Origin: Ignavibacterium sp.
GTDB taxonomy: Bacteria > Zixibacteria > MSB-5A5 > GN15 > PGXB01
DNA: 54,358 nt
Direction of reading: 5' to 3'
Assembly (NCBI GenBank): GCA_020724775.1
Contig: DYGG01000009.1
Coordinates: 17,881-72,238, forward strand
The notes beneath the pieces were generated by a model. That model worked only from the letters and a program-made list of their open reading frames with translations, did no database searches and was not told the DNA's origin. The position numbers were made by a program, and so were the translations under genes. Below are positions 11,401 to 40,560 of this stretch, one piece after another. Positions within the stretch are counted from its first letter, which is position 1, and every line of letters starts with the position of its first letter.

Positions 11401-11967
11401 GTAAACGGTCCCTTTTTCATCCAGCGAGTAGGAGCCGTCTTCATTCTCAACAACGCCGATATGGCAGACCTCGCGGCGGATTTCTTCATCGGTGAAGTCG
11501 GGATGGAGAAGGGCTTTCAGTTTGGCTTCGAATATCTGATAGAAAGTCTCCTCACCGGCGGTGGTATGGAAATGATAACAGGTGCGCAACTGTTGAGTGT
11601 AGGCGGAACTGTTGCCGAGCGCCATATCCTCGAGCGCGGAGACATATCGTCCCAGATTCCCCTTACCCAAAAGGAGATGCTCGCAAGTATGGGGCTCACC
11701 TTTGTCCCATTTCGGGGCAGATTTGACCCAGAAGAACGCCTGCGGCACCGACTGAATCTGTAAGAGGTCAACGATGAATCCGTATTTATTGGAGATGAAA
11801 CGAGCCCCCATCGCTTTGCCGACACTATTATCGTACAGGTTGGCGACTTTGAAGCCTTCGAGCGATTGCCCCGGGGAGAGTTTCTCCAGGGGGCTCTCGG
11901 CGGCGACTGCAATCGATAAGAGGATGGAGAGCGCCGCAAGGAAACGGAGATGCTTGAAAACTGACAT
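8407..11967 (-). CDS. M16C-type zinc metallopeptidase (presequence protease-like), exported
   Basis: 1186 residues from the ATG at 11967, preferred over a TTG at 11991 because GGAAAGGA lies just upstream and the product opens with a signal peptide (FLAALSILLSIAVAAES). The inverted zinc motif HTCEH is at residues 93-97, and EEIRREV near residue 166 is a plausible source of the third ligand Glu. Two long halves of M16 type follow, as in presequence protease/falcilysin-like M16C enzymes, which form a clam-shell that degrades peptides. It is longer than the usual 950-1000 residues. The signal peptide places it in the periplasm or cell surface. It is divergent from the KamA-family gene. Substrates are unknown. 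Confidence 0.87.
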   Translation of the reverse strand: MSVFKHLRFLAALSILLSIAVAAESPLEKLSPGQSLEGFKVANLYDNSVGKAMGARFISNKYGFIVDLLQIQSVPQAFFWVKSAPKWDKGEPHTCEHLLLGKGNLGRYVSALEDMALGNSSAYTQQLRTCYHFHTTAGEETFYQIFEAKLKALLHPDFTDEEIRREVCHIGVVENEDGSYSLDEKGTVYTEMVSAFEKPWYYHFRVMDEMLYGPDHPVANIAGGDPDDIRAMTAQDMREFIKENYHLSNMGVIVSIPSDIPLDLFLREMSKILENCQNFPDSSAYPNISGYDFPAPQKTEPVGAIKVINCPGKPKEPAHMLFSWPADLEYDNSEAFLLDLFLETFAGGPTSNLYDYFISSEKRKIDIGGSSISAYSSSDPGHPIAFYLAGVNPEHVTEKMLDSVRNIIMSEAARIYNFADNSDSLLAFNSRVKSRMSQRKRNIEDYLNTPPMFGFRSGPSGRWVSHLEFIEKEPGFRKSLVLKEKFALADSLLAGNANFWKKYIERWRLMTVKPFAVGSLPSEEILAKEAEAKKDRISGYVEDFKKKYGVADEQAAILKYKEEFDRNTAELQALEASATLPKFIENPPMTLDDQLSYETIMLPGNVPLVASTFENITSATVGLAMRLDVIPEAQLVYIPYLPTVLTEIGVIENGKVVKFDEMKERQRQEILRLNAGFDINHLTGRVELQLTGSGGNFRELQDALKWMELSLYSPYLSRDNLPRMLDVIDQNLMSYRNAMKSSEENWVNYPAYAYRYQHNPLIMSADCFLTKIHHLHRLRWLLTDPGTEKDRQDFAALLDSLAHYGKDKSRDDLKKMLTSLEQKEKSLIYGGTLSIILNGSEHLRDISAVILKNLTASLIDIPDATLARDWDYLCREIRSDLLTDPQVTLDALQSVLASLQKTDNTRMYMISNSADRRAGMDKLNLLVSKLDRAGRSVRQSYAETPRVINRLKEREQLSGKPLYVGLVNDNTRNGVIIFSSKIADVYDTSSESVLNLLAGKFYSGGGGHSFFMKTWGAGLAYSNGVSCSERSGRVGYYAERCPDIAETMRFVVNLLEPPEDNPHIAEYCIAQVFNGSRAASTYESRGTAMAADLADGYTPERMRKFREKVLELRNDPDLFTKLKARLDKVYGPVLVGYGIPSGDAPDGSFFILGPEPQFASMENLIKASEGEHKIYRLYPRDFWLMI

Positions 11968-12095
11968 TTTGCCGATGATCCTTTCCTGCAAATTAAACTT
12001 GCTTGATAATAATACATTAATTTACGGATGGCGCAACCGGTTGATTCAAAATAATCACAGGGGTAGAGATATAGAATAGTTGCATTCGATTCTGC

Positions 12096-24306: not shown

Positions 24307-25191
24307 CTAAGTGGCCCTGTTATGAGGGGGCGAGTTGCTGGCGGCTGCGGCTTTTCCCTCGAAAATTCGCTTGAGGATTATCCCGAAGAGAAATAGGAGA
24401 ATAAAGGCGACCATAAAAACAGAAGCGCCCATGATGGAATGGAGCGGCTCGGCGGTGACATTGGCATCGGAAACATAGACAATAATGCCGGTGGCAAAGA
24501 CGCGGAAGACGTTGCCGCAGACCGCAATCGGGATGGTGGAGGCAAACAGAATGACCTTGGCAAGGAGAGATTTTTGTGTCATATAGGCATAAATCGCGCC
24601 CAGCGCCAGAAGCGACATCATGGAGCGCATCCCAGAACAGGCTTCGGCCACTTCCAGGGATTGATTGGGCAGATGAATCATATTCCCCTGACGGATAGCC
24701 GGCATCCCGATTAAATTGAGAATCGTACCGGTAACTTTGCTTGCCAGAAGTTGCATGGGGAAGGTCGCGGAATAATAGAGAACGTATGGTATCGGAATCA
24801 TGAAAACCAGAAAGAGAATCTCAAACCAGGCGCGGCGAATAATGTTATTACCAAAGAAGTACAGGGTCATTCCGAATATGGTGACCACCAGAGAAAAGCG
24901 AACCGTGAAATACTCCGAAGCCCCGTTGCCAACGACAAAAAGAATAATACCGGCAAGAATGAAGAAAATGCCGAGTCTGTTGGGGGTGACGTCAAGCGCC
25001 GCCAGTTCCTGACGTTTTCTCCAGAGCAGATAACCGGAGATTACGGGGATGAGAAAGCCATGGGAATAATTGCCGTCACTGCTCCAGTCTTTGACCAGGT
25101 CTATGATGACGGGAAGATATATAAGCAGCAGGACGGCCGCCGCTACCAGAAAGAGAGTCTTGTTTACAGTTCCCGGAGGTTTTGTTTCCAT
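24307..25191 (-). CDS. exosortase (EpsH/XrtA-like)
   Basis: 294 residues with about eight membrane helices. The family's catalytic residues are present: Cys185 in EACSGMRSM, Arg230 in GNVFRVFATG and His251 in EPLHSIMG; NYSHGFLIP near 41-49 is also typical. Exosortases are cysteine transpeptidases that cut PEP-CTERM-type sorting tails in the inner membrane. There is no fused EpsI domain and no separate epsI gene here, and none of the proteins in the window has an obvious VPEP-type C-terminal tail. It heads the block with UbiA, DUF362 and NapH-NapG and may be cotranscribed with them. The first 253 bp upstream hold no gene I can support. Confidence 0.9.
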   Translation of the reverse strand: METKPPGTVNKTLFLVAAAVLLLIYLPVIIDLVKDWSSDGNYSHGFLIPVISGYLLWRKRQELAALDVTPNRLGIFFILAGIILFVVGNGASEYFTVRFSLVVTIFGMTLYFFGNNIIRRAWFEILFLVFMIPIPYVLYYSATFPMQLLASKVTGTILNLIGMPAIRQGNMIHLPNQSLEVAEACSGMRSMMSLLALGAIYAYMTQKSLLAKVILFASTIPIAVCGNVFRVFATGIIVYVSDANVTAEPLHSIMGASVFMVAFILLFLFGIILKRIFEGKAAAASNSPPHNRAT

Positions 25192-25444: not shown

Positions 25445-25870
25445 ATGAAAAAAATCCTCTTTGTTTGCACCGGCAATTCCTGTCGCAGCCAGATGGCGGA
25501 AGGATTTGCACGACATTTTGCCAACGGCAGGTTTGAAGTTCGTTCGGCAGGGATATTCCCGACCGGTATTCATCCGATGACCATCGAGACGATGAAAGAG
25601 GTGGCGATAGATATATCGGGGCACTCCTCCACTATGCTATCATCGAGTCTGTTGGAGTGGACGGATTATCTGGTCACATTATGCGGTTCCGCCCGGGAGC
25701 GGATACCGCCGGTGCCGCCGCATGTGACCGACCTTCACTGGGATATCGAAAACCCGGACATACTTTATACTTCAGATGAAGACCGGCGGCGGGAGTTTGC
25801 CCGAATTCGAGATGAAATAGGTCGGCGGGTGGCTAACTTGCTGGAGAAAATTGAAATAGGAGAGATATGA
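25445..25870 (+). CDS. arsC: ArsC-like low-molecular-weight phosphatase-fold protein lacking the third cysteine
   Basis: 141 residues of the thioredoxin-coupled arsenate reductase/LMW-PTP fold. The P-loop C8-TGNSC-R14 (CX5R, followed by SQMAEG) is intact and TLCGSARERIPPV carries C80, the second redox cysteine. In the S. aureus enzyme the third cysteine is seven residues later; here that position is Ile87, so the classic Cys82-Cys89 disulfide cannot form. It could use another reductant or act as a phosphatase. Stop and start overlap (ATGA) with the M16 gene, which is unusual for arsC. No ArsR, ArsB or Acr3 is near. The name is a family label; arsenate reduction is unproven. Confidence 0.85.
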   Translation: MKKILFVCTGNSCRSQMAEGFARHFANGRFEVRSAGIFPTGIHPMTIETMKEVAIDISGHSSTMLSSSLLEWTDYLVTLCGSARERIPPVPPHVTDLHWDIENPDILYTSDEDRRREFARIRDEIGRRVANLLEKIEIGEI

Positions 25871-27405
25871 AGAAGCGGATGATTATCAACTGGTTTTTGG
25901 CATGGGCGCTGGTGGCGACCGGGGCGTCGGCGCAAACGGAAATGCAGATTCCGGTTCAGCAATTCACTCTGGAGAACGGGTTAACCTTTCTGGTTGTGGA
26001 GCGTTCCACGGCGCCGGTCTTTTCGGGGTTTATTTGTGTTTCGGTGGGCTCGGCTCACGAGATAACCGGCAACATCGGCACGGCTCATCTCTTGGAGCAT
26101 ATGATGTTCAAGGGTTCCCAGAATATCGGCACCACCGATTTTGAATCGGAAAAAGTTCTTATGGCGAAGGAAGATTCCGTCTGGGTAAGAATAGACGAAG
26201 CGCGACGTCAGTTGCCGTATCTGAGGATAAACCACCCGGAGAAGGTTGCCGAGCAGGAGAGATACATTGAGACGCTGCAGTTGCTTCTTGATTCCCTGGC
26301 TCAAGCCAGTTCGCAATATGTTATACAGAATGAATTTGACGGGATATATACCCGTCATGGCGCCGCGGAATTTAACGCCAGCACCGGCTACGACCAGACC
26401 AACTATTACGTATCATTGCCGTCCAATCGCCTCGAACTCTGGTTTGCGATGGAATCGGACCGGCTGAAGAATCCGGCTTTCCGGGAGTTTTTCACGGAGC
26501 GCTCCGTGGTGAGCGAAGAAAGGCGTCTTTCCGTGGAAAACAATCCCGACACGAAATTGTATGAGCAGGTAATCGGAGCGGCATATATGGCGCATCCTTA
26601 CAAGATATTCTGGGAGTGGCAGTCGGAAGTGAACAATCTGACCCGTCAGGACCTCCAGAACTTCTTCCGCAAATACTACATCCCGCAAGAAATGACGGTG
26701 GCGATTGTCGGCAATGTCAAACTGGCGGAAGTAAAAAGGCTGGCGGAGAAATATTTCGGCGTTATCCCGCGGGGGACTCTGCCGGAACCGATTTATACTG
26801 AGGAGCCGCCGCAGACCGGCGAGCGGAGAATCGATGTGAACTATGAGTCCTCGCCGGCGCTATATATCGCCTTTCATAAAACGGCATTTGATTCGCCGGA
26901 GGAACCGGTTTTTCAGATTATCCAGCGGTTGCTCGGAGACGGCCGGACGTCGCGTCTATATAAAGCACTGGTGCTTGACAAGCAGGTCTGTCTCGATATT
27001 TCCGTGGGGGAATTTCCCGGCGGTGAATTGGGAAGCGAAGACCCCGGTCTATTCCTGATATTCGCCTATCCCAAAGAAGGGGTCAGCACGGCGGAAGTGG
27101 AAAAAGGGGTGTACGAGGAGTTGGAAAAACTCGCCGCGACTCCGGTGGAGGAAAAAGAACTGACCAAGATAAAGAACCGGATAGACGCCGATTTTATTTG
27201 GGGCTTGCAGTCCAATATTGGGCTGGCGGGTAGGCTGGCATCGACAAAACTTCAAGCGCAGGACTGGCAATATCTGCTCCGTTTTCGCGACAAACTGAAG
27301 CAGGTAACATCGGATGACATAATGGCAACAGCAAAGAAATATCTTACCAGGGAGAATCGCACGGTGGCGACTTTGATTCCCAAGATGACCGGGGAGGAAA
27401 AATGA
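25867..27405 (+). CDS. M16 zinc metallopeptidase, catalytic member of a pair
   Basis: 512 residues with a signal peptide (WFLAWALVATGASA). The inverted zinc motif H74-LLE-H78 is intact (GTAHLLEHMMFKG) and SVVSEERR after residue 210 supplies the third ligand Glu. Between them lies an insertion of about 75 residues with a long charged helix (residues 98-150) before NASTGYDQTNYY. It is coupled by ATGA overlap both to the ArsC-like gene upstream and to the M16 gene downstream. By family knowledge such pairs form an active/inactive heterodimer that degrades peptides; the signal peptide places it in the periplasm. Substrate unknown. Confidence 0.92.
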   Translation: MKKRMIINWFLAWALVATGASAQTEMQIPVQQFTLENGLTFLVVERSTAPVFSGFICVSVGSAHEITGNIGTAHLLEHMMFKGSQNIGTTDFESEKVLMAKEDSVWVRIDEARRQLPYLRINHPEKVAEQERYIETLQLLLDSLAQASSQYVIQNEFDGIYTRHGAAEFNASTGYDQTNYYVSLPSNRLELWFAMESDRLKNPAFREFFTERSVVSEERRLSVENNPDTKLYEQVIGAAYMAHPYKIFWEWQSEVNNLTRQDLQNFFRKYYIPQEMTVAIVGNVKLAEVKRLAEKYFGVIPRGTLPEPIYTEEPPQTGERRIDVNYESSPALYIAFHKTAFDSPEEPVFQIIQRLLGDGRTSRLYKALVLDKQVCLDISVGEFPGGELGSEDPGLFLIFAYPKEGVSTAEVEKGVYEELEKLAATPVEEKELTKIKNRIDADFIWGLQSNIGLAGRLASTKLQAQDWQYLLRFRDKLKQVTSDDIMATAKKYLTRENRTVATLIPKMTGEEK

Positions 27406-28805
27406 AACGGCTTATACTTTTGTATTTGGTATCAGCAGTTCTGTTGACCGTGAGCGCTACGGCGGAGAACCCGCGCGATATGCGTTTTCCCCCGCTCAAA
27501 TTTGAGCCGCCGGAGCCGGCGCGGTTTGTAACCGATAACGGCATAATTGTCTATTTTCTCGAGGACCATCAACTTCCGGTCATTACTGTCGCGGCCCTGT
27601 TCAAAGGAGGAAGCGCCTATGACCTGTCGGATATCTCCGGTCTGGCGGAGATAACAGCGACGGTGCTTCGCACCGGAGGCGCCGGGAAACGGAATCCGGA
27701 AGAGGTTGATGCCGCGCTCGATTTTGTGGGGGAGTCGATATCCAGTGTCGCTCTCAATGATTACCTGATGCTCGATTTGCGCACCCTGAAGAAAGATGCC
27801 GAACTCGGCTTTGAGATACTTGCCGATATTCTGCAGCGGCCGATGATGGATACAGCCAAGATTGCGCTGGAAAAATCGAATCGGCAGGACGCCATTCGTC
27901 GTCAGAACGATGAGCCGGGCGGTATCACTCGTCGGGTCTTTTACCAGACCGTATATTCGGGGCATCCGTACGGTGTCTTTCCCACGTTGGAGTCGGTCGG
28001 CAAAATCAATCTTGAGAAAATAAGAGAGCAGCACAAGAAATATTACAACCCGGACAACTGCATTATAGCGATTTCGGGCGACCTGTCGGCAGAAGAATTA
28101 AGAGCGCTTCTGAGCAAGTATTTCGGGCAATGGCCGCGGGGGAATATGACGGTACCGGAGTTGCCGCGGGCGACCATGACTTACAAGCCGGGGGTGTATT
28201 TTGCTCCCAAAGATATCAATCAGGCGCATATTCGTCTCGGTCATCTCGGAATCGACAATAAGAATCCGGACCGCTTCGCACTGGAGGTGCTCAATTTTGC
28301 GCTCGGGGGCGGCGGTTTTACCTCCCGCCTGACCGGCCAGGTGCGAACGACCGCCGGATTGGCATATTCGGTGGGGAGTTATCTTCTGAATAGACCGCTG
28401 GTGGGAAGTTTCTTTGCATATTGCCAGACAAAGGCGGAATCGATGTCACAGGCGATAAACATGATACTCGACATAATCGGCAAAGTGAAAGATTCCGGAA
28501 TCATTATGGACGAGATGAATATGGCAAAGGAGTCTATCATAAACAGTTACATATTCAACTATGCCACCTCGGAGCAGATGGTCAACGCGCGAGCCTTACT
28601 GGAATTTAGTGGATTTCCTCCGGACCAGTTGAAAAGAGACCTGGAAGCATACCAGGGGGTCACCCTTCAGGACTGCAATCGGGTGGCATCGCTCTATCTG
28701 GATACCGCCAAAATCGCCCTGATTGTCACCGGCAATAAAGCCCTTTTTGATAAGCCTCTTGACAGTTTCGGAGCGGTAACGGAGGTCTCATCGGAAATCA
28801 AGTGA
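27402..28805 (+). CDS. M16 family protein, non-catalytic partner
   Basis: 467 residues with a signal peptide (LYLVSAVLLTVSATA). The M16 fold is clear (ARFVTDNGIIVYFLEDHQLP, SGHPYGVFPT, NPDNCIIAISGDLS, FTSRLTGQVRTTAGLAYSVG), but the zinc motif is gone: the GLAEITAT segment (80-87) has Glu, Ala and Thr where His, Glu and His are needed. This is the usual sign of the beta-like subunit that supplies the Arg/Tyr substrate-binding residues to an active partner. It overlaps the active M16 gene by four bases and converges on the patatin gene; a weak TTTCTAA/TTAGAAA hairpin at 28808-28830 lies between. Confidence 0.92.
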   Translation: MKRLILLYLVSAVLLTVSATAENPRDMRFPPLKFEPPEPARFVTDNGIIVYFLEDHQLPVITVAALFKGGSAYDLSDISGLAEITATVLRTGGAGKRNPEEVDAALDFVGESISSVALNDYLMLDLRTLKKDAELGFEILADILQRPMMDTAKIALEKSNRQDAIRRQNDEPGGITRRVFYQTVYSGHPYGVFPTLESVGKINLEKIREQHKKYYNPDNCIIAISGDLSAEELRALLSKYFGQWPRGNMTVPELPRATMTYKPGVYFAPKDINQAHIRLGHLGIDNKNPDRFALEVLNFALGGGGFTSRLTGQVRTTAGLAYSVGSYLLNRPLVGSFFAYCQTKAESMSQAINMILDIIGKVKDSGIIMDEMNMAKESIINSYIFNYATSEQMVNARALLEFSGFPPDQLKRDLEAYQGVTLQDCNRVASLYLDTAKIALIVTGNKALFDKPLDSFGAVTEVSSEIK

Positions 28806-28823: not shown

Positions 28824-31433
28824 TTAGAAATTGAAGCCGACATTGATATAGTACCGGTCGGTGCGGTCTTTGGCTTTGCCATAGGTAAATTCGACCGGTC
28901 CTATGGGGGAATCATAGGCAAGCGAAGCGCCGTATCCGAATCGAAGATTATCCAGTTTGATATCGTCAACTGACCGGTAAATCTCTCCCAAATCATACCG
29001 GGCGGTCATATAAAACCGATACGGAAGACGATAGCGAAGTTCCAAATTAGCCAGAATCATCTTATCGCCGGCGAGTTCATCGGTTCTGAACCCGATAAAA
29101 GAGTGCGCACCGCCGAGGTAAAATTTCTCGGAGAGGGGAACTTTGTAGTCGGTTTCCATCCATCCGACGGCGAAGCGGGGATGAAAATTGAGGTGGCGCG
29201 AAAGCGGAAAATATGATTCAAGAGAACTGAATACTTTAGTGTATTCGGTTTCGCCGCCTAAAATGTCGGCGGCGTATTCAAGGGAAAACTGATGTTTTTT
29301 CCCGGCGGTCGGAAAGGAGCGTCGGTTGAAGGTCTCCACCAGGGAGCGAATAGTAATTGCCCGCAGACGGATTTCTTCTTCTGTCCCTCCGGGGCGGAAT
29401 CTGTTTTTAACCTGTTCCCATTTTATTTCGCCGGTGACAGTTCCCAGACGGGCTATCTGCTGGCCGAGCAGAAATTCGAATCCGTATCTTTTTTCGAGGA
29501 CGCGCCGGCTCGATTTCCCCCGCTCATCATACAGTTTGCGCTCCAGCAGTCCGTAGTATCCTCGGGCGCGGTAGGTGAGATAAGTGGAGAAAAAGCGGTC
29601 GGCTTTAAGGGACAAATCGTACCGCTGCCGGCGCGGCGCATAGCGGGCATGCAAGAGTATTTCCTGCCCGGTTCCAAAGAGGTTATCGTCAAGAATTTCG
29701 GCGAACTCCTCGCTGCGATATTCATCATCCCAGCGCCATCCAAACCGCGCCTGAGTATACTTTTTCTCCGCCACATTGAGAGTAATGACAGCGCCGGAAT
29801 CTCCCAGAGTCAGGAACATGGAAACACGCTCGAACAGCCCGGTGGCATAGATATTGGTAATTCCGACGGCGGCTCGGGAGGAACGAAACGGCTCCCCTTC
29901 CCGCAGCGGAAAATTGGCGGTAACCAGCCATTTCTTGGTCCGCTCGCGTCCGGTGACCTCGATTTTTTCTACCAGCCCTTCATCGATATCGATGATAATT
30001 GCATTTTGCGTGGGGTCAAATCTGACCGTGCGCAGATGGGCCAGGTCATGGCCCCGCTTGCGGTAGAGCGATTCCAGCGCACGGGCGAATTTCTCAATAT
30101 CTTCAGAAGAAACAGTTTTTCTGCCATCGGTCAAGAGCGCCGTAATGGCGGAACACTCAAAGACAGTATTGCCGCGGCAAATGATTTGGAGACTGTCAAC
30201 AGCCGGGCGCGGGACGGTCTGCACCCGGAGGTTTAAAATGTTATATGAGCCGAATTTGAAGCCGGTTTCGCTGACGGCACCGTTAACAGAATAATGGAGT
30301 TGCGAACGGTACAGGTTGGAGAGGGCGGCGGCAATATCGGTGCGGCGGACAATCGCTCCCGCCTTGAGCGGAAAGACGGCGTCAAAGAGAGAGTCCGGCA
30401 TTCCTGTCTGGACTATCGATTCCAGGCAGACCGTATCGCGGTCGCAGTTCAATTGCAGCCGTTTGTTTATCTCCGGGGCGGCGCGTAAGCCCGCCTGATA
30501 GCCGCTGTCAATCAATTCCGCCGCCGACTGAAAGTCGCTTGAATATATGCCGGCGATGGCGGGGGTGATTACCCAATCGGCCTGCTTGAGACCCCTCTCT
30601 TTCTCATCCAGCGACATAATCGTGGTGACCTGGTCGGCAATATCAATCGGGTCCCTGATTTTGTTTTTAGGAAGCAGGTCGCTGGTGGTATTGACCGCCA
30701 CCACAAACTGGCTGCCGAGGGAGCGGACGACATCCACCGGTATCGGATTGACCAGTCCCCCATCCATAAGAATCATATCCTCTTTTTCCACGCCGGTAAA
30801 AGCCAGAGGAAATGCCATAGTGGCGCGGATGGCGTCAGCGAGATTACCCTTGCCAATAACGGTCTCCTTTCCGGATACAATGTCGGTGGTGACGGCGCGA
30901 AAGGGGATTCTCATTCGCGAGAAATCGGTTCCGGAGATGTAATTGGATTGTAATGTCAGGCTGGAGATGAGGTCAGTCAGCCTTTGACCGGCCGTAAGCG
31001 CCTGCGGAATATGAGGCATGATGCCGTCAAAGCGAATGGAAAGCAGATAGCGCTCTTTCTCGGAACGCTGGGTGGTCAGAAGGGATGTCCGTGAGGGTCG
31101 GTCGCGAAAAAGGCTGGGAAAATTTATACTCAAAATAATCTCTTTCAGACTGTCGGCATCATAACCGGATGCATAAAGCCCGCCGACAATTCCTCCAATG
31201 GAGGTTCCGGCGATGGCGGAAATCTTCAAGCCCGATTCTTCGAGTGCTTTGATGACACCGACCTGGGCAATGCCGCGCGCTCCCCCGCCCGAAAGCGCCA
31301 GTCCGATATGTCGGTCCGAAACGGGAGTCTGTAAGCGGTACCCGTCCCAGCCGATATAGATAATTGTCGAATCGGCAGCAAATAGAAGCGGTGCGGCAAG
31401 AATTAAAGCGACGAATATGCCCAGAGTTTTCAC
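28824..31433 (-). CDS. patatin-like phospholipase fused to POTRA and Omp85 barrel (type Vd secretion type)
   Basis: 869 residues with a signal peptide (FVALILAAPLLFAA). The patatin domain (about 42-320) has GGGARG at 49-54, nucleophile Ser78 in GTSIG and Asp224 in DGG, giving the Ser-Asp dyad. Around 400-560 lie POTRA-type domains (VEKIEVTGRERTKKWLV), and 570-869 is a 16-strand Omp85-like barrel ending in Phe (YINVGFNF), the outer-membrane sorting signal. The layout matches PlpD-like autotransporters that export their own lipase domain. It acts at the outer membrane or beyond. Genes on either side are on the opposite strand, so it is likely monocistronic. Confidence 0.93.
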   Translation of the reverse strand: MKTLGIFVALILAAPLLFAADSTIIYIGWDGYRLQTPVSDRHIGLALSGGGARGIAQVGVIKALEESGLKISAIAGTSIGGIVGGLYASGYDADSLKEIILSINFPSLFRDRPSRTSLLTTQRSEKERYLLSIRFDGIMPHIPQALTAGQRLTDLISSLTLQSNYISGTDFSRMRIPFRAVTTDIVSGKETVIGKGNLADAIRATMAFPLAFTGVEKEDMILMDGGLVNPIPVDVVRSLGSQFVVAVNTTSDLLPKNKIRDPIDIADQVTTIMSLDEKERGLKQADWVITPAIAGIYSSDFQSAAELIDSGYQAGLRAAPEINKRLQLNCDRDTVCLESIVQTGMPDSLFDAVFPLKAGAIVRRTDIAAALSNLYRSQLHYSVNGAVSETGFKFGSYNILNLRVQTVPRPAVDSLQIICRGNTVFECSAITALLTDGRKTVSSEDIEKFARALESLYRKRGHDLAHLRTVRFDPTQNAIIIDIDEGLVEKIEVTGRERTKKWLVTANFPLREGEPFRSSRAAVGITNIYATGLFERVSMFLTLGDSGAVITLNVAEKKYTQARFGWRWDDEYRSEEFAEILDDNLFGTGQEILLHARYAPRRQRYDLSLKADRFFSTYLTYRARGYYGLLERKLYDERGKSSRRVLEKRYGFEFLLGQQIARLGTVTGEIKWEQVKNRFRPGGTEEEIRLRAITIRSLVETFNRRSFPTAGKKHQFSLEYAADILGGETEYTKVFSSLESYFPLSRHLNFHPRFAVGWMETDYKVPLSEKFYLGGAHSFIGFRTDELAGDKMILANLELRYRLPYRFYMTARYDLGEIYRSVDDIKLDNLRFGYGASLAYDSPIGPVEFTYGKAKDRTDRYYINVGFNF

Positions 31434-31500: not shown

Positions 31501-32298
31501 TTGTCAATCTTGACAGAGCGTGAAAAGCGCCGGATTAAGTCGCTGCTGACCAAGAAGGGACGTCGTCAGCATCGGCAGTTCTTAGCCGAAGGAGTTCGCC
31601 TTCTGGAGGAGTCCCTGCGGCACAACTTCCTGCCGGTCACCGTATTTTTCTCGCCGGCGGAACTGAACGAGAGAGGACAGAGCCTTATGGGACGCTTCCG
31701 TGAGTCCGGAGTCTCGGTGCAGTCGATTTCCCGCAAAGAACTGTTCCAACTGGCCGATACGGAAACCTCTCAGGGGCTTATTGCCATATTCGATGAACCA
31801 GAACATTCGATTAGTCAATATCTGACCAGAAAACATTTCCGGGCGCTGCTTCTGGATAATATCGCCGACCCGGGTAATGCCGGCACTCTCCTCCGCTCCG
31901 CACTGGCTTTCGGTTTTGACCTGGCACTTTCGGGACCCGGGACGGTTGACGAATTCAGCCCCAAAACGATACGGGCATCGTCAGGAGCGGTCTTTGGTCT
32001 GCCGATAACAAAGATAGAGCCGGAAAGTTTGAATCGACTTAAGGAAAGCGAGCAGACCGTGTTGATGGCAGCCGACCTTAACGGAATAAATCTGAATCTG
32101 ATTAAGACGGAACGGTTCCGGGCGGCACGGTTGATTCTGGCGGTCGGCTCGGAAGCAACCGGTCTTTCGGAATATGTACGGAAGGAAGTCGATGAACTGG
32201 TGCGGATTCCGCATCGGGATACAACCGAATCATTGAATGCGGCTGTTGCCGGGTCGATTATAATGAAAGCGATTTACGATGCCGGCAGGCAGGTGTAG
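31501..32298 (+). CDS. SpoU/TrmH-family RNA 2'-O-ribose methyltransferase
   Basis: 265 residues from a TTG preceded by AAGGA. The N-terminal substrate-binding domain has RRQHRQFLAEGVRLLEE, and the SPOUT domain shows all three motifs: LDNIADPGNAGTLLRSA (about 118-134), LAVGSEATGLSE (near 215-226) and IPHRDTTESLNAAVAGS (near 236-252). It would methylate rRNA or tRNA ribose with SAM in the cytoplasm; which nucleotide cannot be told. The DUF4097 gene starts at the base after its stop, so the two share a transcript, although no functional link is obvious. Confidence 0.9.
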   Translation: MSILTEREKRRIKSLLTKKGRRQHRQFLAEGVRLLEESLRHNFLPVTVFFSPAELNERGQSLMGRFRESGVSVQSISRKELFQLADTETSQGLIAIFDEPEHSISQYLTRKHFRALLLDNIADPGNAGTLLRSALAFGFDLALSGPGTVDEFSPKTIRASSGAVFGLPITKIEPESLNRLKESEQTVLMAADLNGINLNLIKTERFRAARLILAVGSEATGLSEYVRKEVDELVRIPHRDTTESLNAAVAGSIIMKAIYDAGRQV

Positions 32299-33354
32299 AT
32301 GTTTAGATTCCGAATCGTCCTGATATTGATTCTCCTTTGCTCCCCTTTGCTGTCTGCGTGGGGTGATGAATTAACGTCGCTTGAGGAAGGCCGGTTTGCC
32401 ACTAATTTGAATCACTTAAGAACGACGGTTTCTTCCAGAAAGCGGATTATTATCAATTCAGCGGTTAATCTGAAGGGGAAGATTACCGTGCGGGCGGAAA
32501 ATATTGCCGAGGCGATTCTGGAATACCGCAAGATAATCAAGACCACGAGTCAGTCGGAAGCGATTGATTTTGCTGCCGCCATTAATATAACTTTGGATAA
32601 GAGCCCTTCGGGAACGCGCCTTCTTCTGCAGGCGCCCAACCCTGCCCCCTGGACCGGCACCACCCGCGATGGACTGGTAGAAGCGACCTTGCGGCTGCCG
32701 GAAGACTGCCGGATAGAAATCGATGCCCTCTATTTCGATTTTGATATCGTGGGGCCGTTCCGGAGTCTGGTCAACAAGTCGTCTCTGGGGCGGCTGGTTG
32801 TTAAGAATATTACGGAGCGACTGGAACTGGGAACATCCAACCGTGATATCTTCGCCGAGCAGATCACCGGCGCCATCAGTATCTCCACGGCTCATGCCGA
32901 TATCCGCATTAACGACCTGGTCTCGGATAAAACGGCGGCTCAGATTAAAAACGACAAGGGGAATATTTTCATTGAGAATGCCTCCGGGATGCTTGACGTT
33001 CAGAATTCTTACGGCAAAATAAGGCTGGAGGAGATGATTTTTCGGGGCGGCAACAGCCGGATTATGGGGCAGTACAGCCCGATTCGCCTCAAATTGGCGA
33101 ATATGGAGAAGGGGTATTTGACTGTCAGCAATAATAACAGCGACATTGAGATACTGATGCCCGACTCGATATCGGTCAAATGTTTGCTGTCGGTGGGACC
33201 GGAAGGGGAAATCAGCGTGGAGAGGCTTCCGGCAATCCCGACCTATGTAAGCAGCAATAGCCTCGGCTTTATCTCGGCGGAAGGGACGTCTCGGGCCGAT
33301 ATCAGTATTGCCGGTGACGGGAATATCTATCTGAAAGGGACCGGAGCCGAATGA
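32299..33354 (+). CDS. DUF4097-like exported protein
   Basis: 351 residues with a signal peptide (IVLILILLCSPLLSAW). After residue 130 the sequence is a series of short repeated beta strands (GAISISTAHADIRINDL, KNDKGNIFIENASG, NSYGKIRLEEM, GYLTVSNNNSDIEI) typical of the DUF4097 right-handed beta solenoid. Such proteins are exported putative adhesin or scaffold proteins of unknown function. The gene follows the methyltransferase with no gap and overlaps the barrel gene by four bases (ATGA), so the DUF4097 and barrel proteins probably act together in the envelope. Confidence 0.78.
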   Translation: MFRFRIVLILILLCSPLLSAWGDELTSLEEGRFATNLNHLRTTVSSRKRIIINSAVNLKGKITVRAENIAEAILEYRKIIKTTSQSEAIDFAAAINITLDKSPSGTRLLLQAPNPAPWTGTTRDGLVEATLRLPEDCRIEIDALYFDFDIVGPFRSLVNKSSLGRLVVKNITERLELGTSNRDIFAEQITGAISISTAHADIRINDLVSDKTAAQIKNDKGNIFIENASGMLDVQNSYGKIRLEEMIFRGGNSRIMGQYSPIRLKLANMEKGYLTVSNNNSDIEILMPDSISVKCLLSVGPEGEISVERLPAIPTYVSSNSLGFISAEGTSRADISIAGDGNIYLKGTGAE

Positions 33355-34220
33355 GGAGAAGAATAAAAGAGATAATCATTGCCGCCGTTGTAATACTTAT
33401 TCTGAGCGGCACAGGCGCTTCGGGAGCGGCGCCGGTATTCCTGCCCGAAGGGATTCAGTACCATTATTTTCCCTCACTGGTGACCGGATATGAATCGATC
33501 TGGAGCAATCCGGCCGCTCTCGGATTAGATCGGATCACCCGGATAGTGGTATCCGGGGACTGGCGCGAGGAAAGTCAATTCGAGAACTGGGGAGGGGCTG
33601 TCCTGGGGGATGGGCTGGGAATATCGTATCGCAGTCTGGACGACTTTCAGGGGAAGAATTACAACGAATATATATTCGCTGCCGGCGCCGAACTGGGAAC
33701 GGGGCTGGCTTGGGGATTATCGTACATTTATGTAAGCGAAGGTCCCGGTCATTATAACCATCGGCATCTCTGGAACCTGGGAATCGTATTCAATCGCGGC
33801 TCGCAGTACACGGTGGGGGTTGTCCTAATGAATCTGAACCGGGGCAGAATTGACGGAGAACGCACCGCTGTCAGCCATCGCTACGGCATATCTTATTTCC
33901 CCTTTAATGAAAAATTGGCGCTTTCGCTGGAAATGACCCTCCCGACCGGCGAATTTTCTGAGAAGGAATATCGCTACGGCTTGTGCGTGAGGCCATCCCC
34001 TGAACTCGAGATATATTCCGTACTGGATGGGCATCGGAATTTTCAGTTCGGTATCAGGTTTTTCCTGGACAAATATTTCAGCGCCGTCAGGAGTCATCTT
34101 AGTTCCGGCCAGTATGGTTACACCACGGTTGCGGCCGGCATGGCGCCCTTTGAGCAGAGAGGTAATTCCGGCCGGCGAACCCCAATCATCACCGACCGAC
34201 CCCGGCAACCGCGCGAATAG
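33351..34220 (+). CDS. small outer-membrane beta-barrel protein, function unknown
   Basis: 289 residues with a basic N-terminus and signal helix (IIIAAVVILILSGTGASG). The mature part alternates hydrophobic and polar residues in amphipathic strands and has the phrase SIWSNPAALGL-like (ESIWSNPAALGLDR) near residues 46-59, seen in PorV/UPF0164-type barrels. The last 40 residues are polar and proline/arginine-rich rather than an aromatic barrel end, so the tail may be disordered or the end altered. It is translationally coupled to the DUF4097 gene. Family recognition is only approximate. Confidence 0.65.
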   Translation: MRRRIKEIIIAAVVILILSGTGASGAAPVFLPEGIQYHYFPSLVTGYESIWSNPAALGLDRITRIVVSGDWREESQFENWGGAVLGDGLGISYRSLDDFQGKNYNEYIFAAGAELGTGLAWGLSYIYVSEGPGHYNHRHLWNLGIVFNRGSQYTVGVVLMNLNRGRIDGERTAVSHRYGISYFPFNEKLALSLEMTLPTGEFSEKEYRYGLCVRPSPELEIYSVLDGHRNFQFGIRFFLDKYFSAVRSHLSSGQYGYTTVAAGMAPFEQRGNSGRRTPIITDRPRQPRE

Positions 34221-34332: not shown

Positions 34333-35727
34333 TTGATTATTTTGATGCCCATGATACGCCGACAGTTCTGTATCAGATCTCTCTTACTTCTGTTTATTAT
34401 ATCATCGGAGGTATTTTCCCAGGGCGCCCCACCAAACCGCTCTCCCGAAGCGCAGAACTCCAGGAGAGAGGTCGTTTTTCCCAACGGTTTGACGCTGCTG
34501 ACGATGGAGGACCATTCTACACCGCTGGTCGCGGTGATAGTGGCGTATCGAACGGGCAATAAGAACGAAATTCCGGGGCTAACCGGAATAACGCGCGTCT
34601 GCGAGAGATTGATGCAGATGGGAACTCCGCGCTTCGAAGCCGGGGTCATGAATCGGATAATCCAATCAGCGGGAGGGTTCAGCCGTTCCTTTGCCGACCT
34701 GGATTTGACTCGATTTGTAAGCAAAGTGTCGTCACGGCTTCTGGATACCGTGCTCCTTCTGGAAGCCGACCGGATGCAGAATGTGGAAGTAACCTATGAA
34801 AAACTTCTCCTGGCGCGCGAGGCTGTGCGCAAAGACCGGCTGACCAACGTGGAGAGTTTCATTTACGGTCCTTTTAATGAAGAATATCTCAATCTCGCCT
34901 ATCGTGCGCACCCCTACCGACACCCGCGCTACGGCTGGCCCGGAGACTTAAATAATATCGGACTGAAGGAAGTGAAGGAATACTTCGAGAAGAATTTCCA
35001 GCCGGCGAATGCGACCATAGTAGTAGCCGGGGATTTCAGAGCCGAAAGAGTGACTGCCCTGGTCGATTCGCTGTTCAGCCCTATCGTTTCGTATCCGCCG
35101 CCTCCTGCAATAAGAATAACGGAGCCGGAGCAGCGCGCCGAGAGACGGGCGCTTCTGGAAAGCGCTTCCGGCATTCCGGTATTTCTGGTCGGGTATCATA
35201 TTCCGCCCGCTTCCCACCCCGATATCGCCGCCCTCAGGGTACTGCGCCGAATCATGGTGGGCGGAGAATCATCTCGGCTTTATGAACGGATGGTTCTGAC
35301 GGAGGAGACAGCCCTCTCGGTCGGCGGCGACCTTCTCGAACTGGAAGACCCCGGGCAGATTTTTTTCTACAGCATTCTCAATTACGACACGCCGCTGGAA
35401 GTGGGGGAGGAGGCCATTCTCGATGAAATTGAGCGGTTGAAAGTGGAGTATGTTACCTCCGCCGAACTGGAGAAGGCAAAGAACCGCTTTGAAGCCGATT
35501 TCTATCGAAACACCCGCGCCCTCGATTTCCGAGCGGCAAGATGGGGATTTTATCATCTGATTGTCGGCAACAAGGATGGTCTCAAGAACGAGATATCATC
35601 CGCTCGGGCGGTCACCAAAGAAGATATAATGGAAGTGGCGACCAGGTATTTCGGCAGAAATAATCGCACCATTATCACTCTGACCCCGACAGAACTTCAA
35701 TCTGATGAACAGGAAATTCTGGAATGA
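34333..35727 (+). CDS. M16 family protein with zinc motif replaced by RxxER
   Basis: 464 residues from a TTG at 34333 (GAAGG three bases upstream); ATGs at 34345 and 34351 also fit, and a signal helix follows (CIRSLLLLFIISSEVFS). The M16 scaffold is preserved (VVFPNGLTLLTMEDHSTPLV, AHPYRHPRYGWPGDL, NATIVVAGDF, GESSRLYERMVLT). The zinc motif HxxEH is R88-VC-E91-R92, so both His ligands are lost while the Glu stays. In the usual pair the first gene is active; here it is not by this criterion. The gene overlaps the next M16 gene by four bases. Role may be a binding or chaperone function, which is inference. Confidence 0.88.
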   Translation: MIILMPMIRRQFCIRSLLLLFIISSEVFSQGAPPNRSPEAQNSRREVVFPNGLTLLTMEDHSTPLVAVIVAYRTGNKNEIPGLTGITRVCERLMQMGTPRFEAGVMNRIIQSAGGFSRSFADLDLTRFVSKVSSRLLDTVLLLEADRMQNVEVTYEKLLLAREAVRKDRLTNVESFIYGPFNEEYLNLAYRAHPYRHPRYGWPGDLNNIGLKEVKEYFEKNFQPANATIVVAGDFRAERVTALVDSLFSPIVSYPPPPAIRITEPEQRAERRALLESASGIPVFLVGYHIPPASHPDIAALRVLRRIMVGGESSRLYERMVLTEETALSVGGDLLELEDPGQIFFYSILNYDTPLEVGEEAILDEIERLKVEYVTSAELEKAKNRFEADFYRNTRALDFRAARWGFYHLIVGNKDGLKNEISSARAVTKEDIMEVATRYFGRNNRTIITLTPTELQSDEQEILE

Positions 35728-37103
35728 CTAAATCGACCCTGGCAATCACAATCGGTCTTCTCCTGACATTGTCAGTCGCCTCTGCCGATGAGGTATTTCC
35801 CCAATATACCGAATTCACCCTTGCCAACGGTTTGAGAACCATATTGATAGAAGACCATCGCCAGCCGACAGTCTCCATCGCTATTCTGTTCAAGACCGGG
35901 GCGTCATCGGACCCGCCGGAATTAGCCGGAAGAGCCATCCTTACCGGTCATATGATGAAGGAGAACACCCGGAATTTCCCCGGCAATGAACTGCTTGAGG
36001 CGATTGATTCGGTCGGCGGTATTGTCGAAATCTCGGTATTGACCAAAGACGGCATGTCGTTTGATGCCGATTTTCTTTCGCGGGATATATCTCTGGCACT
36101 GAGAATAGTCTCGGATATCGTCATAAATCCGGTTTTCACGGAAGAAGCGCTGGAGCGGATGTCACGACGGCTGATATCGATTAATTTTCAGACCCGTTCG
36201 GTAGCGCAATATCGCTTGATGGATGCTCTCTACAATGAAATATTCAGGGAATGCGGTTACGGCCGGGCGGCTCTGGGCACTCGCACCTCCCTTTCCGGCA
36301 TCACTCTCGATGATATCAACGTTTATTTTGTCAATCATATCCGGCCGGAAAACGCCATTCTTCTGGTTGGCGGCGATATCAATCCGCCCCAGATTCAGAA
36401 AGTGGTCAGCGGCTATTTCAGCGGCTGGATAAAGGGAGGAAATCGTCCGGCTGCAAAATATGAACCGGCTTTTCGGGATACACTTCAGATAATTCTAATC
36501 GATAATCCGACCGTTCCCAGCGCTGACTTTATGATAGGACTTCCGACCGCGCCGGTCGGGTCGCCCGATTTTCCGGCGATGCTAACCCTGAACTATGTAA
36601 TCGGCGGCGGTGGAAGGGTCTCCCGGCTGTATCGCTCACTGGTGGAGGAAAAAGGACTGGCCAGCATAGTCACATCGGAGTTGGATTGGGCGCGAAATCA
36701 CGGGATGCTTCGTATCTGGGGCGCGGCTCCGGCTGAAATCGCCACCGAGGCGATCGTGCAGGCGATGAGCGTTCTGGAAGAGTTGAGTTCCCTCCGCGTG
36801 CCGCAGAAAGAACTGGATGAGACCCGCAATTATTTCCGGGGTTATGCGCCGATGCTCTACGAAAATGTCTCCTCCTCGATGGACCAGTTTGTCAAGTTCC
36901 TCAGCACCGGCGTCGATTTGCCGTATCAGGCAGAACTCCTGAAGGAAATCGATATGCTTACCCCGGTCTCGCTGCAGAGCGCGGCAAGAAAGTATATAAG
37001 CCGGGATAAGATGACGCTGGCGGTGATAGGCCCCAAGAGTTCGCTTCTTCCCTCGCTTTCGACGCTGGGGATGGTGACCGTGATCAAACTCGAAGAAGAA
37101 TAA
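35724..37103 (+). CDS. M16 family protein, non-catalytic, partner of the preceding gene
   Basis: 459 residues with a signal peptide (LAITIGLLLTLSVASA). The fold features are present (EFTLANGLRTILIEDHRQPT, NAILLVGGDINP, GRVSRLYRSLVEEKGLASI), but at the zinc motif GRAILTGHMM (69-78) only His76 remains, with Ile72 and Gly75 in place of His and Glu. Together with its upstream neighbour this makes a pair in which neither chain can bind zinc in the known way. It overlaps the preceding gene by ATGA and ends 16 bases before a hairpin at 37120-37145. Confidence 0.9.
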   Translation: MTKSTLAITIGLLLTLSVASADEVFPQYTEFTLANGLRTILIEDHRQPTVSIAILFKTGASSDPPELAGRAILTGHMMKENTRNFPGNELLEAIDSVGGIVEISVLTKDGMSFDADFLSRDISLALRIVSDIVINPVFTEEALERMSRRLISINFQTRSVAQYRLMDALYNEIFRECGYGRAALGTRTSLSGITLDDINVYFVNHIRPENAILLVGGDINPPQIQKVVSGYFSGWIKGGNRPAAKYEPAFRDTLQIILIDNPTVPSADFMIGLPTAPVGSPDFPAMLTLNYVIGGGGRVSRLYRSLVEEKGLASIVTSELDWARNHGMLRIWGAAPAEIATEAIVQAMSVLEELSSLRVPQKELDETRNYFRGYAPMLYENVSSSMDQFVKFLSTGVDLPYQAELLKEIDMLTPVSLQSAARKYISRDKMTLAVIGPKSSLLPSLSTLGMVTVIKLEEE

Positions 37104-37168: not shown

Positions 37169-38791
37169 CTAATCACTATATCCGACAAATTCCTGCTGCC
37201 AGCCGGTCCGCTGGAAGACACGAACGCGGGGGGTTTCGGGAGGCAGTTTGGAGGGGTCGTCAAGGTCGGTATCATACGCCCAGTCGCGAATCGGCGGGTC
37301 GTAATAGACACCGCTCCAGTCCCCATCAGCCTGCAGCGAGTTCCAGAGATTAATCATCGAGCCGCGCCAGATGAATCTCTTGCTGGACCAGGTCTCCAGG
37401 AAGCGCGGCAGGTTCTCCACGCCACCGTTATAGACGGTGCTGGTGGTATTGGTATTACCGCTCAGAAAGGAACAGTTGGCAACGGTCTCTGAGGCCACCC
37501 GGCTGGCTTTGGTCAGCGTCGAGTTGGCGTCATTCCAGCTGTTAGATAGAAAGGTAACCGCATCGCCTGCCACAAACGCCGGCTTCTTATCAATCTTGTT
37601 GAAGTCGCCCTGAATATAGAGCGGATTCTCGCTGACAACCGATGTGGCGTAATCGAGTTCGGAGCCATTGACCAATCGTGTCGCATTAAAAGTGCCGGCA
37701 CGCTGGTCGGAGGTATAGACAACGCCGTTTGACGGGAAATAGGAACTCGACTGCAGTTTATCCATATCGATTTCCACAGTGTTGACGTTGGTCAGTTCCC
37801 GAGCATCATAGAATATCTTGGTGGTGACAGTGCCGGCCGGAAGCAGGGCGCTGACGTTGACCCAGACGCCTCCTATTTTTGAGTACGGGACGCCATCAAG
37901 GACCTTGAATTGCGCCAGGTGCTCATAGGAGTCGGGATTGCCGGAACCGCGCTCGATCAATTTGTGCGGGTCACTGGCGTTAGTCAGAGGGAGTTTCAAC
38001 TCGCCCTGACCGAAAGCCGAGTCCTGGACTCGTCCATCCCAGCGCACTACGGCTGAGTCATACCAGTACGGGTCGCTCGATTCCAGCCAGTCTCCGTTCT
38101 TCAACATATTCTGGTAATTGCCATCAGCGTCTTTTATGAAGACGTTTCCGGGACTGGTGCCCCCCGGTCCTTTTCTGCCGTGGATAACGTTTCCGGAAGC
38201 GGTCACATAACTGTCCATATAAAGGTTATTATTGGACTGCAGATACAGGTTTCCGTTGCTATGAATACGGCCGACGATGGTCATATCCGGTCCGGGGGCT
38301 ATCTCCAGGTCGTTGCCATAGAAGATTGCGAACTGAAAGATAGGCACCAGGGCTACCTCAAAATTCTGGTTCAGGACGACCTGGCTTTGGTCAACGCCGG
38401 AGGTACCTGTAGAGGTCACGGTGAAGGTTTTCACCAGGGCATGAAGACCGGCCAGCGCCCCCTGACTCAACTCTCTCTGGATGGCGGCGCCATTATCGAC
38501 CGTCGTGTAGGCGGCGACGCAGTTATTGACCGTTTCGCTTCCCTGAGGCATGGTACTCGGGGGAAGTCCGGTCGCTTCGTACTGGGTCTGAATAGCGGCC
38601 GAAGCTTTTTCCAGACCCGCTTCCGCCGCATAGAAAGCCGCCATTTCGTTCAGTTCGTTGCCGGCGATAGTGACTTCGTCATTCGACAGCCGCACTACCG
38701 CCAGACCGATCATGGTCATCATCACCATAACCATCAGCGCAATCAACGTGGCGACCCCTTTCTCATCTATTAAGAACTTGCGCATAAACAT
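37169..38791 (-). CDS. PilX-type minor pilin / pilus assembly protein
   Basis: 540 residues from the ATG at 38791, which has GTAGGTG upstream; the frame is open to 38833. The N-terminus MFMRKFLIDEKG-VATLIALM is a prepilin leader ending in Gly, followed by a membrane helix and the PilX_N-like segment VVRLSNDEVTIAGNELNEM with AAFYAAEAGLEKA. It lacks Glu at mature position 5 (Ile instead), as in PilX and GspK proteins. The long C-terminal part (residues 100-540) is polar and beta-rich with a region of repeats rich in Asn, Ser and Asp. It ends the pilin operon and would sit at the pilus tip. Function in pilus assembly is inferred. Confidence 0.82.
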   Translation of the reverse strand: MFMRKFLIDEKGVATLIALMVMVMMTMIGLAVVRLSNDEVTIAGNELNEMAAFYAAEAGLEKASAAIQTQYEATGLPPSTMPQGSETVNNCVAAYTTVDNGAAIQRELSQGALAGLHALVKTFTVTSTGTSGVDQSQVVLNQNFEVALVPIFQFAIFYGNDLEIAPGPDMTIVGRIHSNGNLYLQSNNNLYMDSYVTASGNVIHGRKGPGGTSPGNVFIKDADGNYQNMLKNGDWLESSDPYWYDSAVVRWDGRVQDSAFGQGELKLPLTNASDPHKLIERGSGNPDSYEHLAQFKVLDGVPYSKIGGVWVNVSALLPAGTVTTKIFYDARELTNVNTVEIDMDKLQSSSYFPSNGVVYTSDQRAGTFNATRLVNGSELDYATSVVSENPLYIQGDFNKIDKKPAFVAGDAVTFLSNSWNDANSTLTKASRVASETVANCSFLSGNTNTTSTVYNGGVENLPRFLETWSSKRFIWRGSMINLWNSLQADGDWSGVYYDPPIRDWAYDTDLDDPSKLPPETPRVRVFQRTGWQQEFVGYSD

Positions 38792-38819
38792 AAAGCACCT
38801 ACCTTCTGCGAAATAATTA

Positions 38820-39641
38820 TTACCAAACATCAAGGTTCCTCAAGTTGACCTTGGATGCATATGAAGTTCTTCGATACGGATTGCCTTCAAAATCAGGGTC
38901 ACACATGGCGGTGCGCGCCACCACCGTCATCATCACCTCGCGCGTCTCCACCGGAATCGGAGGAACATCCACCACCATTCCGTTTTTCATTCTAAATTTG
39001 AACTGCAGGTCATCGACATATTCGGCATACACCACCGGGTCTTCCCCGAGAATCTGCATCATCAAATTGGGGTGGGTAGTGTCGCTATTGTCCACATAGT
39101 ACTTAATTCGCTGAAGCGCCATTATCTGGCTTCCCTTGCGGTATCTCTTAGTCAGCATATATGTATTCAAAGCAATCTGCTTGGGTGAGTCCTGGACTTC
39201 ACCGATTCTGAAAAACTCTCCGCCGCCGGAATCAGGGTCGAAGATATAGCCTATGGAGTAGCCGTTCAGAAACGATAGTTCTTCGCCATCACAGCGAAGC
39301 GGTCCGGATTCGCTAACCATGTCGTACTGCAATGTTGCCGTGCGGTCGTCAATCGCGAAAGTGATTTCTATAGTATCCGGATTGGCGTTCACGGACGTAA
39401 TCGGGTCCACCCCGAGCGGCACGAAATGTCCCGCCATCCGAATGAATCGCGCTAATTCGTCGATAGCAGCGCGGGCATTCTGCTGCATATTAATGATTCC
39501 ATCCTGTATCATCATATTCTTATGCTGATTAATGTAAGCGCCGAAGACGGCGGCGACCACCAGCCCGGTCAGGAAGAGGGCGGTCATCGCTTCCATTAAT
39601 GAAACGCCGGCTTCCGCTCTGATTTTTCGATACCTTGCCAT
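38820..39641 (-). CDS. PilW-type minor prepilin (copy 1)
   Basis: 273 residues from the ATG at 39641, with AGGATA upstream; the frame extends to 39716 but the leader then would be too long. The cleavage site is AEAG-VSLMEAM with Glu5 present and a hydrophobic helix to about residue 40. The body contains IDELARFIRMAGHFVPLG, PDSGGGEFFRIGEV and YVDDLQFKFRMKNGMVVDVP. It is about 50 percent like the neighbouring PilW gene by eye, including the spacing of all those motifs, so the two arose by tandem duplication. It is the third gene of the minor pilin operon transcribed on the minus strand. Confidence 0.88.
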   Translation of the reverse strand: MARYRKIRAEAGVSLMEAMTALFLTGLVVAAVFGAYINQHKNMMIQDGIINMQQNARAAIDELARFIRMAGHFVPLGVDPITSVNANPDTIEITFAIDDRTATLQYDMVSESGPLRCDGEELSFLNGYSIGYIFDPDSGGGEFFRIGEVQDSPKQIALNTYMLTKRYRKGSQIMALQRIKYYVDNSDTTHPNLMMQILGEDPVVYAEYVDDLQFKFRMKNGMVVDVPPIPVETREVMMTVVARTAMCDPDFEGNPYRRTSYASKVNLRNLDVW

Positions 39642-39738
39642 AACAATATCCTGAGTATTTGTGCGCTGTGCTCTGTTCCGGGTGCGGATATGGGGCGCAA
39701 AGGTTTCGAGTTTCATTATCTACCTGCTCATTCAGATT

Positions 39739-40560
39739 CTATATGTCAAAATTTCTCAAATTGACTTCGGAAGCAAAGGTGCGGCGACGATAAGGGTCGG
39801 CCGGGAAGTCAGGGTCAGGCCGCGCCGAACGCCCTGTTAACGATATCCGCACGGAACGGATATCGGCGGTCGATACCGGCACATCCACCACCGCCGAATT
39901 TTTCATCACATAACGGAACTGCAGGTCTTCTATATTTTCCGCATAAACCTGGGGGGTTTGCCCCAGAAGTTGCATCATCAGTTTCGGGCGTAGAGTATCG
40001 GTGCGGTCGATATAGTATTTCACTCGTTCCAGCGACAGGAGGATTGACCCTTTGGGATAAGCCTTCGACAACGGCATGGTATTATGCTGAATATGCGAAG
40101 AACCGGTCTGCACATGGGTAATCAAGAAGAATTCTCCGCCGCCTGAGTCAGGGCTGAAAATGTACGCCCACTGATCGTCCTGGAAACAGGAAACATCATG
40201 CCCATCGCAACGGAGTTCTGCCGACGGGCGCGGCATGGCATGCTCCAGAGGGGCATCACAGCTGTTAGCCTGGTAGGTAATGACGATGGTATCCGGATTG
40301 GTATTATAAGCCTCAAGGCCCGGTAAGCCAAGCGGCAGACCATGCCCGGCCATCCGGACCTGGCGGGTTAACTCGTCGATAACGGCGCGGGCGCTCTGCT
40401 GCATTTCGGTGACATCTTCCTGTATCATCCAGTTCTTATGGTGATTGATGTAGACTCCGAAAACTGAGGCTACCACCAGACCGGTCATAAAAAGACCGAT
40501 GAGAACTTCCACCAGCGAAACACCGCTATTATTTCTGAGAAATGTTTTGAGATTTTTCAT
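39739..40560 (-). CDS. PilW-type minor prepilin (copy 2)
   Basis: 273 residues with leader MKNLKTFLRNNSG, cleavage before VSLVEVLIGLFMTG and Glu5 present. Shared landmarks with copy 1 are IDELTRQVRMAGHGLPLG, SPDSGGGEFFLITH and AENIEDLQFRYVMKN. The equal length and matching motifs show a tandem duplication. It has more Cys residues (SCDAP, DVSCF) than copy 1, which could form disulfides. It begins eight bases after the PilV-type gene. Role as a minor pilin in a type IV pilus or pseudopilus is by family. Confidence 0.88.
   Translation of the reverse strand: MKNLKTFLRNNSGVSLVEVLIGLFMTGLVVASVFGVYINHHKNWMIQEDVTEMQQSARAVIDELTRQVRMAGHGLPLGLPGLEAYNTNPDTIVITYQANSCDAPLEHAMPRPSAELRCDGHDVSCFQDDQWAYIFSPDSGGGEFFLITHVQTGSSHIQHNTMPLSKAYPKGSILLSLERVKYYIDRTDTLRPKLMMQLLGQTPQVYAENIEDLQFRYVMKNSAVVDVPVSTADIRSVRISLTGRSARPDPDFPADPYRRRTFASEVNLRNFDI

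Follow-up and report, generated by a model that had tools for sequence, protein, structure and literature searches.

Bacterial M16B heterodimers (Sph2681/Sph2682, PDB 3amj; PA0371/PA0372; TTHA1264/TTHA1265; PttP1/PttP2) are encoded as tandem chains of ~450 aa, and an active pair combines the motif HxxEHx76E in one chain with an R/Y pair in the partner chain. The R/Y pair is a substrate-binding and transition-state motif (PMC12731061), and the NAxT strand is described as part of the substrate-binding cavity (PMC9291397). The α and β subunits of mitochondrial processing peptidase share this family and pair architecture; the β subunit is active, and the α subunit has a glycine-rich loop instead of R/Y. 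Core I and Core II of the bc1 complex lack R/Y, their HxxEH motif is missing or degraded, and a structural role is ascribed to them (PMC11266112; PMC12731061).

Here we describe a tandem pair, chains A and B, encoded in a window of 54,358 nucleotides (the whole stretch of DNA analysed). Unlike the bacterial heterodimers it resembles, the pair has lost HxxEH from A and R/Y from B, so that neither half-site is left. The nearest parallel is Core I/Core II, likewise an M16B pair retained (within a membrane complex) after losing these motifs. In contrast to the core proteins, A-B is presumed to act in the bacterial envelope, is encoded in an operon without bc1 genes and does not belong to complex III; its loss is separate from theirs, lying inside a bacterial clade with intact close relatives. 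A described bacterial M16B pair with both half-sites dead was not found in the open-access literature, which is weak evidence of absence.

Results

An M16B pair with an intact predicted fold

The first-pass annotation had reported two open reading frames with a four-base overlap and signal peptides, and this arrangement was confirmed: the stop codon of A and the start codon of B share ATGA at 35724-35727, and both N-termini are signal-peptide-like, judged by sequence likeness. Chain A begins at a TTG codon, with possible alternative ATG starts at 34345 and 34351. Like the described bacterial heterodimers, A and B each contain both M16 domains (Peptidase_M16, PF00675; Peptidase_M16_C, PF05193) above the Pfam gathering cut-offs, and by homology both are members of the M16B family. 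The solved sequences nearest to A are catalytic-type M16B subunits (5euf, 3amj_C, 3ami and 4nnz; E 1e-42 to 1e-44), and the one nearest to B is the inactive subunit 3amj_B (E 5.6e-25). An AlphaFold2 model of A (pLDDT 87.5, pTM 0.83) predicts an intact fold whose top structural match is 3ami (TM 0.85). The proposal that the M16 fold was otherwise kept is therefore borne out by the domains of each chain and by the model of A; for B the fold assignment is sequence-based.

Table 1. Features of the A-B locus and its surroundings (window coordinates).
Feature	Position	Strand	Details
Active M16B pair, in-genome control	25867..28805	+	HLLEH chain 25867-27405; R/Y chain 27402-28805
Patatin-POTRA-Omp85 protein, divergent conserved neighbour	28824..31433	-	
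SpoU-family rRNA methyltransferase, first gene of conserved block	31501..32298	+	
DUF4097-like ("toastrack") envelope protein	32299..33354	+	351 aa; Pfam match on orthologues, not on the window copy
PorV-like 14-strand barrel (P0006)	33351..34220	+	289 aa; structure prediction
Chain A, degenerate orthologue of catalytic M16B subunit	34333..35727	+	464 aa
RVCER (R88, E91, R92) replacing HxxEH in A	34594..34608	+	alignment
R118-S119 replacing invariant Asn-Ala of substrate-binding strand (NAxT) in A	34684..34689	+	
A161 replacing conserved Glu at +69 in A	34813..34815	+	
D168 at third zinc-ligand position (+76; Glu in active chains) of A	34834..34836	+	
Chain B, orthologue of non-catalytic M16B subunit	35724..37103	+	459 aa
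ILTGH (I72-H76) at HxxEH-equivalent position of B	35937..35951	+	alignment
V307 replacing Arg of R/Y pair in B	36642..36644	+	
S314 replacing Tyr of R/Y pair in B	36663..36665	+	

The window also encodes the control pair, which, as previously annotated, combines one active and one inactive chain. A simple pattern scan returned A-B as the sole M16 pair in the genome with neither HxxEH nor R/Y; seven other M16 proteins in the genome have HxxEH. A further protein of 1194 aa (8407-11991, - strand) contains HTCEH and matches Peptidase_M16_C weakly; it resembles a long M16 peptidase made of a single chain. Four consecutive M16 chains lie on another contig of the window's genome (G000 contig C60, L127:2060-8566, + strand), the second of which (L127:3316-4713, a 466 aa frame) lacks both HxxEH and a strict R/Y pattern and sits beside an HLLEH chain. 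The window additionally carries an exosortase gene (24307-25191, - strand; PF09721, E 2.5e-75), which suggests that the organism has sorted surface proteins.

The pair occupies a conserved operon position

Orthologous pairs were gathered by searching 132 genomes of the window's phylum, many of them fragmentary, and aligned. The window's own family is denoted f1 and a related family f4; the 31 active A chains came from families f2, f3, f5, f6, f8-f10, f13 and f15-f17. Family f1 conserves the gene order SpoU, DUF4097-like, PorV-like barrel, A, B, flanked by the divergent patatin-Omp85 gene, and the order from SpoU to A-B recurs in whole or in part in f4 and in the active families f5, f6, f9, f10 and f13, as established from mechanically called reading frames and BLAST rather than curated annotation. 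This shared position makes A-B the positional orthologue of the active pairs. The DUF4097-like and barrel genes overlap by 4 bases. The divergent neighbour, found beside the SpoU operon in several families, joins a patatin phospholipase, POTRA and an Omp85 barrel in one protein. Convergent with B lie PilX-like and PilW-like genes (37169-40560, - strand), which form the junction of the A-B deletion in genomes G079, G080 and G085.

The barrel is modelled with 14 strands (pLDDT 78), and its top Foldseek matches are 8gl6_F and 6h3i_F, the best being PorV of the T9SS (TM 0.61, ~11% identity), which suggests a FadL/PorV-type barrel. It differs from such proteins in being smaller and in having no Pfam or NCBIfam match above cut-off. 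We read the fold as PorV-like and do not take the protein to be a T9SS component.

The barrel gene of f4 and of the active families is longer, at ~800 aa, and its C-terminal part is a tandem S49/SppA region (PF01343, E 1e-67 to 1e-77). The operon-bearing f1 genomes have a barrel-only frame of ~270-320 aa, and S49 is absent from the operon. Complete loss of S49 from f1 genomes was rejected, as most encode a stand-alone SppA and, at another locus, a full-length barrel-S49. The barrel-S49 proteins encoded elsewhere form a lineage separate from the operon's short barrel; the window's genome has one such gene (contig C14, L118:4990-7617, - strand), and its barrel is likewise separate from the window's short barrel.

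Both half-sites of the composite active site are replaced

In chain A, RVCER aligns with HxxEH and both histidines are gone, in agreement with the earlier proposal that this chain lacks the zinc site. While 31/31 A orthologues outside f1/f4 retained HxxEHx76E together with a Glu at +69 (pattern HEHEE), both histidines and the +69 Glu were gone from 13/13 A chains of f1 and f4 (10 and 3, respectively); none of the 31 others lacked both histidines. The f1 and f4 chains instead show RERAD-type patterns, with D, E, A, K or V at +76. Several f1 A chains, including that of the window, retain E91 and have Asp or Glu at +76. By its spacing the third zinc ligand is the residue at +76, and the Glu at +69, which was rejected for this role, is a separate conserved residue. 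Columns conserved in active A chains (at least 90%) and lost in f1 include T87, R88, R92, Q95, R118, S119, L160 and A161, where active chains have S, H, H, F, N, A, S and E, respectively. Some further lost columns fall outside the active site, and 44/71 active-conserved columns are still kept in f1. In a scan of genome contigs, the A-like chains of the distant relatives TA06, Saprospiraceae and Melioribacter all had HxxEH; a scan of viral contigs gave no match. In each A chain of f1 and f4, Lys or Arg occupies one or more of the five positions that were once catalytic (34594-34836), as though a positive side chain stood in for zinc; we note this as an observation only.

In chain B, ILTGH was found to align with HxxEH, as had been noted, and the zinc motif is absent. 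This absence is not the telling loss it was taken for: none of the B orthologues in any family aligned has HxxEH, so an inactive subunit ordinarily lacks it. In the alignment, the informative loss in B is that of the R/Y pair, which completes the active site of the partner. Both residues were lost in 12/12 B chains of f1 and f4 and kept in every other B chain readable at those columns. The split between families, in A as in B, goes beyond chance. Active-conserved B columns lost in f1 include N261, T263, P265, S266, R298, V307 and S314, where active pairs have K, D, T, Q, F, R and Y, respectively, and 26/60 such columns are still kept. In the alignments of both chains, the lost columns centre on the composite active site.

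The window's pair therefore has HxxEHx76E in neither chain (R88, R92 and D168 in A; I72, G75 and H76 in B) and no R/Y in B (V307 and S314), and by these tested catalytic features A-B is not an active M16B peptidase. In another bacterial M16B pair, replacing the HxxEH and R/Y residues together with alanine abolished product formation (PMC8960859), which makes catalytic loss in A-B a strong inference; we regard it as very probable. The earlier suggestion of a non-proteolytic pair is thus strongly supported by the loss from A of both histidines, the +69 Glu and the Asn-Ala pair, and from B of R/Y. It is highly improbable that the pair is still an enzyme, using another metal site or nucleophile or with A or B joined to an active M16 chain encoded elsewhere. 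Such activity might be read from C90, which is invariant in f1 A chains, from the frequent retention of E91 and from the other HxxEH proteins of the genome. However, C90 is present in active HLCEH orthologues too, the ortholog alignment held no new conserved His/Asp/Glu set among the f1 chains that could serve as an alternative ligand set, and the A and B genes, which overlap, are co-inherited.

A mutation or assembly artefact confined to one genome can be regarded as refuted. No support for it was found, and the same state recurs across 13 genomes from 9 genera, among them that of a sister species at 88% identity. Orthologues with intact HxxEH, which had been put forward as a sign of local mutation, occur in other families only and instead date the loss.

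The first-pass annotation had described the pair as peptide-binding or scaffold. A closed chamber that holds peptides or barrel precursors uncut would suit the intact predicted fold, and M16 chambers can hold an uncut peptide, as with bovine subunit 9, which occupies the cavity enclosed between the two core proteins (PMC12731061). However, the substrate strand (N118R, A119S) and R/Y were lost in the same clade, which makes peptide binding in the usual mode less likely. A role as peptide receptor or chaperone of this kind is consequently improbable, and the scaffold half of the earlier description fits better.

The loss looks ancient and the pair remains under selection

With the catalytic columns excluded, f1 and f4 formed one clade in the tree of A (SH-aLRT 100), with one change of state, and in the tree of B (SH-aLRT 99); they were also joined in the tree of the adjacent barrel (support 100/100). 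Because all 13 disarmed chains fall within one clade, they count as approximately one event, not 13. The stem of f1 and f4 is long (0.9 in A), and the disarming of A-B looks like one ancient loss, with some room for an attraction artefact. Independent losses in f1 and f4 were rejected on the single change in the trees, with the proviso that attraction is possible with such a stem.

For A and B, dN/dS between the window's genome and that of sister species G077 was 0.095 and 0.118, respectively, which shows purifying selection between these two species; the active pair of both genomes gave 0.073 and 0.114 (Nei-Gojobori counts from this one species pair). Across f1, A-B diverges faster than the active pair, with family-level identities of ~50% (A) and ~40% (B) versus 62-71% and 57-64%. 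Stop-free A-B frames were nevertheless found in the 13 genomes of 9 genera, seven of the sampled genera belonging to f1. With both half-sites gone and the pair kept under selection, A-B in this respect behaves as a pseudopeptidase pair of the bc1 core type.

In three f1 genomes of two genera (G079, G080 and G085) A-B is cleanly missing and the barrel is kept, the operon running from SpoU, DUF4097-like and barrel straight into the convergent PilX gene. As these genomes deleted the pair and kept the barrel, some lineages manage without the role of A-B, and the barrel is not in every case reliant on the pair. The main rival to a retained function is that A-B is a slow relict: having lost catalysis, it would serve no essential purpose and be on its way to deletion by drift. 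This clean absence between barrel and PilX and the lower family-level identity are what such a relict would leave. Against it stand the open frames, a dN/dS of ~0.1 between sister species and the active-conserved columns still kept in both chains, and we consider it unlikely, if somewhat less so than a peptide-holding chamber. The simplest way to arrange these states is active, disarmed, deleted; this is not a series demonstrated in one lineage.

Discussion

These results are best explained by a model in which catalysis was lost once, in the common ancestor of f1 and f4, and the pair was retained as a non-proteolytic scaffold or chaperone for the barrel/DUF4097 module (probability roughly 0.6). 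The ancestor of A-B would have been an ordinary active M16B heterodimer in a class-wide operon comprising SpoU, the DUF4097-like gene, a PorV-like barrel-S49 fusion, A and B. In the f1 and f4 ancestor, A would have lost the zinc-binding, catalytic half and B the R/Y half. Thereafter A-B may have been kept as a clam-shell pseudopeptidase in the periplasm, where it would most likely serve the PorV-like barrel/DUF4097 module as a chaperone or structural subunit, and S49 would additionally have been lost from the operon in f1.

Within this model, gene order and family precedent, and for the two chains also the four-base overlap of their genes, suggest that A and B form a heterodimer that contacts the barrel; a periplasmic location and a scaffold role are likewise presumed. 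The conserved operon with its barrel gene points to A-B being a structural subunit of a membrane complex, and such a structural job is probable because selection keeps the disarmed pair next to an outer-membrane barrel gene. A broader version, to which we give slightly less than even odds, is that an envelope proteolytic module turned non-proteolytic: the pair was disarmed and would now serve as a scaffold for the barrel, which then shed its S49 domain, with barrel-S49 encoded elsewhere.

For annotation, proteins labelled "peptidase M16" in f1 and f4 should not be presumed to be peptidases. The two half-sites lie on different genes and were lost together. For the paired M16B pseudopeptidases known from complex III, both the active ancestor and the steps in between lie far back. 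At the conserved operon position of A-B, by contrast, a single bacterial phylum shows active, disarmed and deleted states, and the reason for keeping a disarmed peptidase therefore becomes testable by comparison. If true, the conversion of this module would give the complex III core proteins a counterpart in bacteria, with all stages present in living relatives.
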